64,000 bases of DNA, from positions 186,001 to 250,000 of the forward strand of contig JAFWNM010000013.1 in assembly GCA_017510335.1 (NCBI GenBank). The letters run 5' to 3'. Every line of letters starts with the position of its first letter. The stretch's first letter is position 1. Shown one piece after another: positions 6,993 to 63,712 of this stretch. Position numbers and translations under genes: made by a program. The DNA is from Paracoccaceae bacterium. GTDB taxonomy: Bacteria > Pseudomonadota > Alphaproteobacteria > Rhodobacterales > Rhodobacteraceae. The notes below the pieces were generated by a model. That model did no database searches. It was not told the origin of the DNA and saw nothing but the letters and a program-made list of their open reading frames with translations.

Positions 6993-7607
6993 ATGGCTGG
7001 TGAGATCCCGGATCTTTTGGCCGAGGTACGGACGGGGACAGGCAAGGGGGCCGCTCGTCAAGCTCGTCGTGAGCATAAAGTACCCGGTATTGTTTACGGT
7101 GGCGGTTCCGACCCGCTGCCTGTGAATTTCAACTACCATTACCTGATCAAGCAGCTGAAAGCAGGCCGTTTCCTGTCGACGCTGTTCAACCTGAAAGTTG
7201 AAGGTCAGGAAGATGTGCGCGTTATTTGCCGTGGCATTCAGCGCCATGTCGTCAATGGCCTGCCCGAGCATGTGGACCTGATGCGCCTGCGTCGCACAAG
7301 CCGCATCAACCTGTTCATTCCGGTTGAATTCATCAACCACGAAAAATGCGTTGGCCTGAAACGCGGTGGCATGCTGACCGTTGTGCGCCCGGAAGTGGAA
7401 CTGAATGTGCTGGCAGGGGATATCCCCGAAAAGCTGGTTTTCGACCTTGATGGTCTGAAAATCGGTGACACCATCACCATCTCGGCCATCACATTGCCAG
7501 ATGGCACGAAACCCACAATCGACCGCGATTTCGTGATTGCAAACATCGCCGCACCGCGCGCGCTGGTTGCTTCCGACAATGAAGAAGACGAAGCTGCCGA
7601 AGAATAA
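6993..7607 (+). CDS. rplY: 50S ribosomal protein L25/general stress protein Ctc
   Basis: 204-aa long (CTC-type) L25: the N-terminal 5S rRNA-binding domain ([25 protein letters not shown]) is followed by the C-terminal beta domain with [15 protein letters not shown] and an acidic tail [11 protein letters not shown]. The start at 6993 is preceded by TGGAGA and gives MAGEIPDL, the usual alphaproteobacterial N-terminus; a longer reading frame upstream is not supported. It is followed by a strong terminator and then pth, the usual rplY-pth neighbour pair. Confidence 0.97.
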
Positions 7608-31780: not shown

Positions 31781-32464
31781 TCAGGGGGCGGGTGGCAGCA
31801 GGCATTCGGCTTCGCGTTTTGCTGGCAGGCCAAGCGCCGCGCCCGGCCCCGCCAGAAACGCGCGCACGCGGTCCGGGTCGCGCCGCGACAGGTCGCGCAG
31901 CCACCCTGCAATTGCGTTCTGGATGAAACGGTCGCGGTCGGGCGCAAGCTGCGCGGCCCAGTCCAGCACCTGTTCGCGCACGGCCATTTCAGCGGGTTTG
32001 GGGTGAGGCAAACGCGCCCATGGCAGCGTCATGACCAGGGCCGCGCGGCGTGTCCACATATTCGGGGCTGTGATCCAGTGCGCCAGCTGTTCCAGCCGTG
32101 CGGGGTTTGCCTGCAACCGCTTGCCGCCCGCGATTGCGACATGGTCGGCCAGGGCCCGACTGTCGCAATCCTGCGCCCAACCCGCAATCAAACCCCATGC
32201 CGCGCTGTCATCGGGGCGCATGCGTGCCTGTGTCAGCAGTTTCGCGGCCAGAATGCGCGCTTCATGAACATCGCTGGCCCATAGCGCCTGTGCCATGTCG
32301 CACCGCGCGGGCACATCATGGTCGCGGCGCAATTCGCGCGCCAGCATATCCAGCACCTGCGCGGGAATTCCCAGAAATGCGCGGGGCGTCGGTGACTGCG
32401 CGGCCATCTGTGTTGCTGTGGCAGGGTCCGACAGGGCGTGCAACTGCGCCAGCAGCGGCATCAT
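31781..32464 (-). CDS. AlkD-like DNA alkylation repair HEAT-repeat protein
   Basis: 227-aa helical-repeat protein. The AlkD family features are WITAPNMWTRRAALVMTLPWA (the WxRR helix), DRDRFIQNAIAGWLRDLSRRDP and DPDRVRAFL. AlkD removes bulky or cationic alkyl bases from DNA. The family is usually 220-240 aa, as here. It starts within the glmS stop codon (ATGA overlap), so it would be translated from the glmS mRNA; the catalytic Asp and Trp positions cannot be checked without alignment. Confidence 0.85.
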   Translation of the reverse strand: MMPLLAQLHALSDPATATQMAAQSPTPRAFLGIPAQVLDMLARELRRDHDVPARCDMAQALWASDVHEARILAAKLLTQARMRPDDSAAWGLIAGWAQDCDSRALADHVAIAGGKRLQANPARLEQLAHWITAPNMWTRRAALVMTLPWARLPHPKPAEMAVREQVLDWAAQLAPDRDRFIQNAIAGWLRDLSRRDPDRVRAFLAGPGAALGLPAKREAECLLPPAP

Positions 32465-34272
32465 TCGACCGTCACCGATTTGGCCAGGTTGCGCGGCTGG
32501 TCCACATCCGTGCCCAGATGCAGCGCCGTATGATAGGCGATAAGCTGGGCGGGCACGGCGTAAACGATCGGCGCGATAAGTTCGGGCACTGTGGGCATTT
32601 GAACGCTGCGCGGCACCTGCCCGGCGGCAGCCAGCCCGTGAGCGTCTGAAATCAGCAAGACCTGCCCCTGACGGGCCATCACTTCTTGCATGTTCGAGAT
32701 GGTTTTTTCAAACACCCCATCATGGCGCGCGAAAATGATGACGGGCAAATCTTCATCAATCAGCGCGATGGGGCCATGCTTCAGCTCTCCTGCTGCATAA
32801 GCTTCGGCATGTATATAGCTGATTTCCTTTAGTTTCAGCGCCCCTTCGAGGGCAATCGGATACATGACCCCACGCCCGAGGAACAGCACATCGCGCGCCT
32901 TGGACAGGGTTTCCGTGATGCGGCGAATGTCATCTTCGCGGTCCAGCGCCTTGGCCACAAATCCCGGCGCACTGCGCAGCTGCGCAACCAGGTCTGCATG
33001 TTGCGCGGCGTCGATATGCCCGCGCGCCACCCCTGCATGCAGTGCCAACAAGGCCAGAACCTGCAATTGGGCGGTAAATGCCTTGGTCGAGGCCACGCCG
33101 ATTTCCGGCCCCGCGTGAATGGGCAGCGCAATGTCACTTTCGCGCGCGATGGAGGATGTGGGCACATTCACCACCGACACCACCTGTGCAACACGCCCCT
33201 GCACATGGCGCAATGCGGCCAATGTGTCTGCGGTTTCGCCCGACTAGCTGACAAACAGCGCCAGATTATCCGGCCCCAGAACAGGGTCGCGGTAGCGGAA
33301 TTCAGATGCGATATCCAGTTCCACTGACAGGCCGGCATATTTTTCAAACCAGTATTTCGCCACCTGACAGGCATAGAACGCCGTACCGCAAGCCACCATG
33401 ATCAGCCGGTCGGCGCGCGCGAATTCCAGCCCGTCGGGCAGTTCAACGCCTTGGGGTGTTGAATATTGTTCCAGTGCTGCTTGCAATATGGCGGGTTGTT
33501 CGGCCATTTCCTTGGCCATGAAATGGCGGTGGCCGGATTTGTCCACGCGCGCGGCATCCACATTGATGCGCTGGATACGCCGGTTGGTCTGGCGGTCCTG
33601 CGCGTCGAATATTTGCGCGCCCGCCCGTGTGAGGACGGCGCAATCCCCGTCTTCCAGATAGGTGATGCGGTCCGTCATGGGGGCCAGCGCGATAGCGTCA
33701 GACCCAAGGAACATCTCGCCTTCTCCGTGGCCGATGGCCAAGGGCGAGCCGCGACGCGCGCCGATCATCAGGTCATCTTCGCCCGCAAACAGGAACGCCA
33801 GTGCAAATGCCCCTTCCAGCCGCTTCAGCGTAGCGCGCGCGGCCTGAACCGGCGTCATGCCCTGTTCCAGATGGCGGCTTGTCAGGTGGACAATGGTTTC
33901 CGTGTCGGTTTCGCTGCTGAATTGCGCGCCCGATGCAGCCAGTTCGTCGCGCAGCGCGCGAAAATTCTCGATAATGCCGTTATGGACAACCGCCACACGC
34001 CCCGCCTGATGGGGGTGGGCATTTTCCACTGTGGGGGTGCCATGCGTGGCCCAGCGGGTATGGCCAATGCCCGACCGCCCCGGCAATGCGTCATGCACCA
34101 TGACATCCGACAGGTTGATCAGCTTGCCCACCGCGCGGCGGCGGTCCAGATGGCCGCGATTGACAGTTGCAATGCCCGCACTGTCATAGCCGCGATATTC
34201 CAGCCGTTTCAAGGCATCCAGAATCAGGGGCGACACTTCATGATTGCCCAACACACCAACAATACCGCACAT
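32461..34272 (-). pseudogene. glmS: Glutamine-fructose-6-phosphate aminotransferase GlmS with an in-frame amber codon
   Basis: Makes glucosamine-6-phosphate for cell-wall precursors. The frame runs 603 codons, with the usual Cys2 nucleophile (MCGIVGVLGN), glutaminase domain to about residue 240 and two SIS sugar-isomerase domains after it. Codon 343 (33244-33246, minus strand) is TAG instead of the expected CAG, within the highly conserved SQSGETADT sugar-phosphate site. Everything after it stays in frame and conserved to the stop at 32461. A single C-to-T change explains it. If real, it would inactivate an essential enzyme unless suppressed or duplicated; a sequencing error or a recent mutation are the simple alternatives. 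glmU lies just upstream. Confidence 0.9.
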
Positions 34273-34277
34273 GCCGC

Positions 34278-35627
34278 TTATCCTTTTGCTTTGGCCGCTT
34301 TGGCCGCGCGCAACTTGTCCATCAGCCGTTTTCCCAGACCGGGCCTGGTGTCCTGCCGCGCACGTCCCAGCGCCAGCGCGCCGTCAGGCACATCGTTGGT
34401 GATGACCGACCCCGACCCCGTCATCGCATGCGCCCCCACAGCCACAGGGGCCACGAGCATGGTGTTCGACCCGATAAACGCGCCTTCGCCAATACTCGTG
34501 TGATGCTTGAACACGCCGTCGTAATTGCATGTTATTGTGCCCGCACCCAGATTGGCGCGCGCGCCCACATGCGCATCCCCGAGATAGCTCAGGTGGTTGA
34601 CCTTCGCGCCTTCGTCCAATGTGGCGTTCTTGATTTCGACGAAATTGCCCACGCGCACATCCTCGGCCAGTTCTGCGCCCGAACGCAGCCTTGCATAGGG
34701 GCCGACCACCGCGCCGCGGCTGACATGCGCGCCTTCCAGATGGCTGAAGGCGCGGATTGTCGCGCCCCCCTCGACGCTGACACCGGGGCCGAACACGACA
34801 TAGGGTTCGATGATGCTGTCGCAGCCAATCACAGTATCCTGGGCAAAAATCACAGTGTCAGGCGCCTGCATGGCCACGCCGTTTTCCAGCGCTGCCGCGC
34901 GGGCGCGCGCCTGAAAGGCAGATTCGGCTGCGGCCAGTTCCGCGCGGGTGTTGATTCCCAGTGTTTCACTTTCGGGGCACAGCACAACCCCGGCCGACAG
35001 GCCGTTTTCGCGCGCAAGGGCCACGATGTCTGTCAGGTAATATTCGCCCGCGGCATTGTCATTTCCAACCTTGTCCACCAGCGCGAAAAGCTGCGCACCA
35101 TCTGCACATATAACACCACTATTACATAGGTTTATGAGCCGTTCTTCATCTGATGCGTCCTTGAATTCCACGATCCGTTCCAAACTGTCACCCCGGGTGA
35201 TCAGCCGCCCGTAACGTGCGGGGTCTGCTGCCTCGAACCCAAGCACGACGACATCATGCGCGCCGCGCGCGGCGCGCAAGGCCTGCAGCGTTTCCTCGCT
35301 TAGGAAGGGCGTGTCGCCATAAAGCACAACCACATCCCCCGCCACATCTGCCAAGGCCGCGCGCGCCTGCGCCACCGCATGCGCGGTTCCAAGCTGCTCT
35401 TGCTGTTGGACGACCTGCGCGCGCTCATCCTCGGCCAGAACCACATCGGCCACTTGCGCACCGCCATGGCCCACAACGACCACAACGCGCGCAGGCTCCA
35501 GCGCGCGGGCGGCGCGCATGGCATGAACCACCAACGGCACTTGCGCCAAAGGATGCAGGACTTTTGGCAAGTCCGATTGCATGCGGCTGCCCTGCCCGGC
35601 GGCAAGAATGATCAATGAAACCGACAT
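34278..35627 (-). CDS. glmU: Bifunctional N-acetylglucosamine-1-phosphate uridyltransferase GlmU
   Basis: 449-aa enzyme making UDP-GlcNAc in two steps. The N-terminal uridyltransferase has LAAGQGSRMQSDLPKVLHP and YGDTPFLSEETL; the C-terminal left-handed beta-helix acetyltransferase has repeats such as VTFEGGATIRAFSHLEGA-like hexapeptides and NYDGVFKHHTSIGEGAFIGS. The start MSVSLII at 35627 is the N-terminus of the domain. It forms an operon with glmS (5-nt gap) and probably the AlkD-like gene. Confidence 0.97.
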   Translation of the reverse strand: MSVSLIILAAGQGSRMQSDLPKVLHPLAQVPLVVHAMRAARALEPARVVVVVGHGGAQVADVVLAEDERAQVVQQQEQLGTAHAVAQARAALADVAGDVVVLYGDTPFLSEETLQALRAARGAHDVVVLGFEAADPARYGRLITRGDSLERIVEFKDASDEERLINLCNSGVICADGAQLFALVDKVGNDNAAGEYYLTDIVALARENGLSAGVVLCPESETLGINTRAELAAAESAFQARARAAALENGVAMQAPDTVIFAQDTVIGCDSIIEPYVVFGPGVSVEGGATIRAFSHLEGAHVSRGAVVGPYARLRSGAELAEDVRVGNFVEIKNATLDEGAKVNHLSYLGDAHVGARANLGAGTITCNYDGVFKHHTSIGEGAFIGSNTMLVAPVAVGAHAMTGSGSVITNDVPDGALALGRARQDTRPGLGKRLMDKLRAAKAAKAKG

Positions 35628-35835
35628 GCTGCCCACTCTTTCTGTCTTTTTTTCTGAATGTGGTTTTGCCCCAGTTACCCAACAAGGCGCAAGGCACGCA
35701 AGCTTCACTTCTGGTTTCAGTCTGAAACAGGCACAAAACAGCAAGCAGGATTCTCAATTTGACAGAAATCAACGTCATGCGCGAAGCTGCGTGTCACATT
35801 GCCACCAGCGCAACAGGACGAGGAAGGAAACGACG

Positions 35836-36249
35836 ATGTATGGCAGAATAATTGTCGCAGTGGATCTGGAACATCTTGATCAGGCGAAAGCGCTGATCGG
35901 GCGGGCGCAAACCCTGCTGGATGCGGGGGGCGAAATGCGGCTTGTTCATGTGCTGGAAGAAGTGCCCGGTTTCATTGCCGCGCAATTGCCGCGCGACACC
36001 CAGGACCGCCGCCGCGCCGAAGCGATGGTGGAACTCAAGGCGCTGACTGACCCTGCAGCGGGGGTGCGTGTGGTCGAGGATGTGCGCCTTGGCGCGGCAT
36101 CGGGGCAAATCATGCAAGCCGCCGAAGACTGCAATGCAGACCTGATCATGATCGCCAGCCACAAACCCGGCCTAAGCGATTATTTCATCGGCTCCACCGC
36201 GGCGCGTGTGGTGCGCCACGCCACCTGTTCCGTGCTTATTCAACGCTAA
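35836..36249 (+). CDS. Universal stress protein, tandem copy 1
   Basis: 137-aa UspA-fold protein. The N-terminal strand YGRIIVAVDLEHLD and C-terminal IASHKPGLSDYFIGSTAARVV are the ends of the Rossmann-like fold. The usual ATP loop G-x2-G-x9-G-S is altered: the first two Gly positions read ASHK, while the G-S-T part is kept, so ATP binding is uncertain. Preceded by AGGAAGGAAACG. It is the first of three paralogues in a row and divergent from glmU. Confidence 0.93.
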   Translation: MYGRIIVAVDLEHLDQAKALIGRAQTLLDAGGEMRLVHVLEEVPGFIAAQLPRDTQDRRRAEAMVELKALTDPAAGVRVVEDVRLGAASGQIMQAAEDCNADLIMIASHKPGLSDYFIGSTAARVVRHATCSVLIQR

Positions 36250-36273
36250 AATCAACACAAGGAAACCTGACAC

Positions 36274-36690
36274 ATGTACACTTCCATCGTCATCGCTGCG
36301 GCGCTGTTCAACGAAGGGGCAACCACCCGCGCGGCACTGGAAAAGGCACGCAAACTTTTGTCAGCCGGGGGCAAGGTCACGCTTGTTCACGTCATTGACG
36401 AGATTCCCGGCTATGTCGCGGCCGCCATCCCGCAATCGCAAATTTCGGCCCGCCGCAAGGATGTGGAGGACCAGCTTGCCGCCATCGCTGCGGAATTTTC
36501 CGATATCGCGGTCGAAGCGGTCATCCGACAGGGCCAGCCGTCAGCGTCAATTCTGGGCTGCGCGCAGGAAGCTGCCGCCGACCTGATCATGATTGCCAGC
36601 CATAAACCGGGGCTAAGCGATTATTTCATCGGCTCCACTGCCGCGCGCATTGTGCGCCATGCGCAAGTGTCGGTTCTGGTCACGCGCTGA
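36274..36690 (+). CDS. Universal stress protein, tandem copy 2
   Basis: 138-aa UspA-fold paralogue starting MYTSIVIAAALFNEGATT, 24 nt after copy 1, so co-transcribed with it. It shares the altered loop ASHKPGLSDYFIGSTAARIV. The copy is closer to copy 3 at the N-terminus (ALFNEGATTRAALEKA against ALFNQGATSRSLIEKA) than to copy 1. A terminator follows. Confidence 0.93.
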   Translation: MYTSIVIAAALFNEGATTRAALEKARKLLSAGGKVTLVHVIDEIPGYVAAAIPQSQISARRKDVEDQLAAIAAEFSDIAVEAVIRQGQPSASILGCAQEAAADLIMIASHKPGLSDYFIGSTAARIVRHAQVSVLVTR

Positions 36691-36710
36691 TCTGCCCCTT
36701 GCCCCCTTTT

Positions 36711-36748
36711 CCCCCGCGCAGTCCTTAACGGGTGCGCGGGGGTTTGCT
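36711..36748 (+). terminator. Terminator between universal stress genes 2 and 3
   Basis: A 10-bp perfect stem CCCCCGCGCA / TGCGCGGGGG with a 12-nt loop, followed by TTTGCTTT. It separates the third universal stress gene from the first two, so that gene probably has its own promoter. Confidence 0.8.
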
Positions 36749-36802
36749 TTGCATGGCGCGCTGTGTCATCCTTGCCCAAACCACCGATCCGGGAGGAAGC
36801 GC

Positions 36803-37219
36803 ATGTACAATTCCATCGTCGTTGCAGTTGCATTGTTCAATCAAGGGGCCACAAGCCGCAGTCTGATTGAAAAGGCAAACGCGCTTGTCGATGCGGGCGG
36901 GTCCATAACTTTGGTCCATGTCATGGATGAAATTCCTGCCTATCTGACCGCTGCAGTGTCCAAAGACCAGCTTCTGAACCACCGCAAGGCCATCCGCGCA
37001 CAGCTTGAATCGCTGGCCACACGCGCCAAAGCCAAGAATGTGGATATTGACCTGCGCGGCGGGCGCCCGTCTGAGAACATTCTGAAATGCGCGAAGGAAT
37101 GCAACGCAGACCTGATCATGATTGCCAGCCACAAACCGGGCATGAGCGATTATTTCATCGGCTCCACTGCCGCGCGGGTTGTGCGGCATTCATCCGTTTC
37201 GGTGCTGATCGAACGCTGA
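36803..37219 (+). CDS. Universal stress protein, tandem copy 3
   Basis: 138-aa UspA-fold protein starting MYNSIVVAVALFNQGATS with GGGAGGAAG 4-5 nt upstream. It has the same altered ATP loop, ASHKPGMSDYFIGSTAARVV. It is separated from copies 1 and 2 by a terminator. The last 80 nt are nearly identical to those of the two upstream copies, pointing to gene conversion. Confidence 0.93.
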   Translation: MYNSIVVAVALFNQGATSRSLIEKANALVDAGGSITLVHVMDEIPAYLTAAVSKDQLLNHRKAIRAQLESLATRAKAKNVDIDLRGGRPSENILKCAKECNADLIMIASHKPGMSDYFIGSTAARVVRHSSVSVLIER

Positions 37220-63132: not shown

Positions 63133-63712
63133 CGCCACGATCCTGAATGTTGTCGATAGGCTTGATAAGGAAGAAAAGTCAGCCCTTATCAACACCAAGA
63201 GAAGCCCGAAGGCTCACGCAAGGCTATCCAGGCAGAAAAGCGAATATCCGGCCCATTGCATCACATGCCTGAACCGCCTGCTTTGTCGGTGCGGTGTCAC
63301 ATCTTTTCGCGCGATGATAGGCGCCGCCCGGGGCATGGTCAGGCCCAAACCGTTGGTCTTGACGTGATGGCGTCCAATGGGTTCGATCCGCGAGGCATAT
63401 TTCAGCCACGCTACCTCGCGGATCAACAGCGTCTGGCGACGTTGGGGGACCGTCCACACCACCAGATTTCAGTGGCCATGAACACTTCGCCCTGAAAACG
63501 CGCAGCAGCAACGGTTTTTGCCGCGCTGCGGCAGGGCCTTTCCCTTTTCGAGTTGCGCAAGATGCATCTTTTCGCATAAGACCCGCATATATCGCATGGA
63601 CCCGGTGCAAGCCCGGGTGGCTCTTCCGGCCGCTGATCCGCCGGATAACCTGAATAAACACCATGAAAACCGGCGCTGTTCCACAGGGTAATGCCGGTCA
63701 GGAACCCATGAC
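63133..63712. other. Degenerate region without a supported gene
   Basis: No frame longer than about 150 codons and none with a recognised domain on either strand. Short frames at 63224-63664 (minus) and 63256-63495 (plus) show no transposase motif that I can identify. It may be a decayed insertion between the integrase remnant and the SulP gene. Confidence 0.4.

Follow-up and report, generated by a model that had tools for sequence, protein, structure and literature searches.

Does the amber codon that interrupts glmS in this genome mark a lost gene, a codon read as sense, or a wrong base? The window, the whole stretch of 64,000 nucleotides that was analysed (C7:186001-250000), belongs to a genome (G000) of 3.61 Mb in 43 contigs that is rated 99.99% complete. 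On its minus strand, positions 33246-33244, which correspond to C7:219244-219246, read TAG, in frame, at codon 343 of glmS, and the gene is otherwise open over its 603 codons.

Anatomy of the interrupted gene

Direct reading of the sequence agrees with the earlier note on the position of the amber codon and on its flanks, AGC (S342) on the 5' side and TCG GGC GAA ACC GCA GAC ACA (SGETADT) on the 3' side. It agrees equally on the 260 open codons that follow, which end in a TGA at 32463-32461. In the ORF list, the 5' frame (34272-33244) runs for 342 aa to the TAG. The features of the locus are given in Table 1.

Table 1. Features around the glmS amber codon, and the amino-sugar cluster on another contig of the same genome.
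Feature	Position	Strand	Basis or remark
glmS 5' part: glutaminase (class II amidotransferase) domain and start of first SIS domain	33244..34272	-	
In-frame TAG, glmS codon 343	33244..33246	-	sequence
glmS 3' part: remainder of first SIS domain and second SIS domain	32461..33243	-	260 codons + TGA
Upstream neighbour, open, start codon uncertain	34278..35744	-	ORF list
Downstream neighbour, DNA alkylation repair enzyme family, open	31781..32464	-	Pfam PF08713, 2.5e-50
Cluster of sugar ABC transporter, NagK-like, NagB-II-like, NagA, MurQ-like and GntR/UTRA regulator genes	contig C8		all open

The two pieces together resemble bacterial GlmS (glutamine--fructose-6-phosphate aminotransferase, isomerizing; TIGR01135, NF001484), with whole-model homology on both sides of the stop and with the N-terminal MCGI and the C-terminal AKSVTVE of the family. 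Pfam assigns GATase_6 and SIS to the 5' part and SIS, in two stretches, to the 3' part, so that the glutaminase domain and both SIS domains are present, spread over the two pieces. Against NF001484 (601 positions), the 5' piece covers 1-341 with 425 bits and the 3' piece 343-601 with 361 bits; a single model position is thus lost, and the gene scores 805 bits when read across the stop, a homology not due to chance. In alignment with E. coli GlmS (1jxa), codon 343 corresponds to residue 348 and the 3' piece starts at residue 349, hence the stop replaces residue 348. A review lists Gln348, in its docking part, among the active-site contacts (PMC9272926). The Gln of the Ser-Gln-Ser loop is therefore absent from the gene as assembled, its codon being TAG.

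The upstream neighbour, a putative glmU, has an open counterpart in the relative G021 that is 85% identical. Elsewhere in the window, three adjacent ORFs are arranged in tandem on the plus strand at 35581-37219; they look like universal-stress-type proteins, and the first of them is 45-47% identical to neighbouring copies in G021. The Rfam family of sul1 RNA (RF03058) has a 77-bit match at 63595-63650 (plus strand).

Codon 343 and selection among relatives

Codon 343 specifies Gln in all of the 109 other glmS loci compared (64 CAG, 45 CAA), which comprise the best 80 of a longer list of genome-contig matches together with 29 from relatives. The full codon comparison covered 145 loci, 35 of them without alignment over codon 343, and the window's own was the single TAG. 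In the nearest relatives (G012, G018 and G021, 93% aa identity), the 24-nt context differs from that of the window solely at the TAG base. One base separates the TAG from the Gln codon of all compared relatives.

The same singularity appears at the level of the order. A set of 149 genomes that passed a 90% completeness filter, our own among them, was searched for glmS at 1e-150; 148 gave matches, in 149 places, and an internal stop occurred in one of these places, our own. The remaining genome (G177) had no match at this threshold; the 3' part of its glmS starts 43 bases into a contig, consistent with a contig end having cut the gene. Among nearer relatives, a glmS match over the cut-off was found in 40 of 41 genomes (own included), the exception being a genome of the same genus, G002 (87% complete), with no match over the cut-off and a best value of 1e-24. 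In another member of the genus, G008 (88% complete), the match covers positions 1-358 only. Some relatives carry two glmS copies (G009, G039, G184), as does G018, where a second full-length gene lies at G018:C13:86501-88315 and is 69% identical to the window's in its 3' part.

Past the stop, the gene evolves as an intact one does. For codons 344-603, dN/dS was 0.046-0.057 against the three relatives and 0.047-0.058 among those relatives; for codons 1-342, the corresponding values were 0.079-0.091 and 0.047-0.081. The codons after the TAG are thus under the same strength of selection as those of the intact relatives, suggesting either a recent change or one that is not real. Neither relaxed selection, as judged by dN/dS after the stop, nor further lesions in the remaining frame were found in glmS, and the values past the stop rule out an old pseudogene.

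The earlier suggestion that a second glmS might stand in for this one did not hold: no other full-length copy was found in the genome, where the five further matches are all partial. Two of these could be typed with NCBIfam, as NagB-II-like and MurQ-like. The next-best match lies at C8:75528, in a SIS-only gene with NagB-II as its top NCBIfam family (314 bits against a cut-off of 430), and a second glmS was rejected accordingly.

Single-base lesions in the assembly

We consider that the glmS TAG is probably due to one wrong base in the draft assembly and that the living organism would have an intact, functional glmS, a reading that we put at roughly 60%. The TAG would have come from a miscall, or from a minority allele that entered the consensus, the wrong base itself being the step that we infer. 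Such an error fits with the conservation of Gln in every locus compared and with normal selection past the stop, with the fact that the interrupted gene is the only full-length glmS found in a genome of such high rated completeness, and with the reported need of E. coli for glmS on LB (PMC3610933). Assembly errors are reported to yield spurious internal stops (PMC11017572), and in V. fischeri essential genes were described as broken by miscalls (PMC2330054).

Further support comes from two more one-base lesions in 1.09 Mb of the same assembly. We compared 1,094,089 bases of the genome with 1.2 Mb of G021. From G021 to G000, 547 coding-like ORFs had a match (185,301 codons), and from G000 to G021, 560 ORFs; ORFs with non-coding-like differences (412 and 445) were dropped beforehand, and a real but odd gene is possible among them. 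Three of the 547 conserved ORFs are interrupted in G000: glmS by its TAG, and clpA and a TRAP transporter fused permease each by a one-base deletion. The clpA deletion falls in a short G run on C22 near 107,185 (L216, ~7,176-7,191), and both halves match the ClpA model and are 96% identical to the open G021 copy. clpA is a single open frame in 17 of the 18 same-genus relatives searched; the exception, G014, has an in-frame TAG in its own copy (G014:C23:77957-80173). The permease is split on C6 near 136,390 (L229, ~16,390), and its 3' part matches its model while its 5' part has no NCBIfam match.

These three were accepted from ten flagged places, and seven were set aside, six of them with stops at query codons 28-90. 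At C22:13974, C42, C6:94842, C6:167829 and C6:234565 a long open frame follows directly after the stop, and at C6:77509/77443 an open conserved protein starts past both stops, which points to over-long ORFs in G021. A TAG flagged at C7:185230 was rejected as the shadow of an opposite-strand, lipoprotein-like ORF present in both genomes. In the reverse comparison, 11 of 560 ORFs were flagged in G021 and all were inspected; ten were judged over-long or shadow ORFs and one is interrupted, a small membrane-type protein gene (G021:C1 near 2,501,400) that is frameshifted near its 3' end and open in G000.

This comparison tilts the balance towards single-base errors but falls short of proof. A count of 3/547 is not clearly above the 1/560 of G021, making the excess suggestive only, and the clpA and permease lesions could be real pseudogenes. 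The sequencing error that had been offered as one option in the earlier note is thus somewhat strengthened by the clpA and permease lesions, tempered by the one that G021 has too.

A possible real amber codon: salvage or readthrough

We hold it possible, though clearly the lesser chance, that the amber is real and fixed, with GlmS made at a low level by readthrough through a near-cognate or undetected tRNA, or with the organism a new obligate scavenger of amino sugars through its GlcNAc-type cluster. The second of these, a very recent nonsense mutation with GlmS lost and life sustained by imported GlcNAc, is the better of the two, and we regard it as rather unlikely. GlcNAc would be converted to GlcNAc-6-P by NagK and to GlcN-6-P by NagA, as in fed glmS mutants; those of E. 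coli are reported to lyse on LB and to grow when GlcNAc is added (PMC3610933). The open cluster on C8 offers such a route on paper. Its transporter is predicted from its place in the cluster to import a GlcNAc-type substrate, and NagA scores 228 bits, over the TIGR00221 cut-off, so that imported GlcNAc could yield GlcN-6-P and a true loss would be survivable on amino sugars, which also counts against an assembly error. Akkermansia muciniphila is described as naturally lacking GlmS and dependent on GlcNAc, with a NagB reported to be unable to form GlcN-6-P at physiological conditions (PMC5902328), and short-lived in-frame stops, TAG for CAG included, are reported in bacteria (PMC7918605). Given the cluster on C8, the gene may have just been lost in a strain fed amino sugars, as the earlier note suggested.

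Several observations weigh on the other side. Such a life would require a steady supply of amino sugars, and glmS has no decay beyond the single codon. The NagK-like kinase reaches 130 bits where the NCBIfam equivalog cut-off is 370, and the NagB-II-like gene likewise stays under its own. Relatives with an intact glmS carry the same type of SIS gene, so the NagB-II-like gene is no strain-specific compensation.

Readthrough of a genuine TAG, whether a suppressor tRNA or near-cognate tRNA-Gln (UUG) decodes it, with enough full-length GlmS produced, appears improbable. Purifying selection does persist past the stop, near-cognate tRNA-Gln would presumably insert the family's own residue, and a survey argues that in-frame stops are frequently read through (PMC7918605). 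Nevertheless, amber behaves as an ordinary stop here: RF1 (prfA) is present, open and over its cut-off, and TAG terminates 92 of the 560 compared ORFs in G000 as against 82 of 547 in G021, so that amber works as a terminator and is not depleted in that role, and genome-wide reassignment was rejected on these grounds. No interior TAG besides that of glmS was accepted among the 547 compared ORFs. An Rfam search gave 36 tRNA matches, 35 over threshold and the 36th at 17.5 bits, and none of the 35 typed tRNAs has the anticodon CTA, in a list that is incomplete: no Phe or Ile tRNA gene was seen in it, and ARAGORN, run on short stretches surrounding the Rfam matches and on 1.09 Mb (~30%) of the genome, turned up in the latter a tRNA-Tyr missed by the whole-genome search, which leaves room for an undetected suppressor. 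ARAGORN also reported a second, short tRNA-His-like gene at G000:C7:303151-303223 (minus strand) that is absent from the Rfam matches. The earlier idea of amber suppression thus found no positive support in the tRNA genes, RF1 or the use of TAG.

A split GlmS, its two pieces made separately and working together, is scarcely credible: both frames are open and conserved, but the break falls within the first SIS domain rather than between domains, on which anatomy we reject it, and the 148 other glmS places are all uninterrupted.

Implications and known parallels

Altogether, the most likely order is an assembly error, then a real recent mutation, then readthrough, the base rates behind these odds being a matter of judgement and not of measurement; no new mechanism is needed for the glmS TAG. 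If the base is an error, one miscall gives the appearance that an essential gene is gone from a genome rated nearly complete, and the one-base lesions in clpA and the permease argue for checking the assembly against its reads. If it is real, the locus would capture the loss of de novo amino-sugar synthesis at a very early stage, or would show amber readthrough occurring naturally in an essential enzyme; in a scavenger, it would be the first mutation of a cell-wall auxotrophy. A literature search on amber or nonsense codons and glmS gave no mention of glmS among the matches listed, which does not imply its absence from print.

Each reading has a known counterpart. Spurious pseudogenes, as described for assemblies (PMC11017572) and in the resequencing of V. 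fischeri ES114 (PMC2330054), take the form of one-base lesions that stand alone in genes that are conserved or essential, as here; in the present genome the lesions are seen at the level of the assembly. Short-lived stops under purifying selection (PMC7918605) share with this one the TAG in place of CAG, the intact flanks and the low dN/dS, although that study focuses on stops shared by at least two species and the glmS TAG occurs in one genome only. Akkermansia muciniphila (PMC5902328) resembles the present case in that amino-sugar salvage could replace GlmS; it is reported to lack glmS altogether, whereas this genome keeps an otherwise intact gene. Finally, compared with bacterial GlmS at large, the window's gene differs in having TAG where the other loci have a Gln codon.
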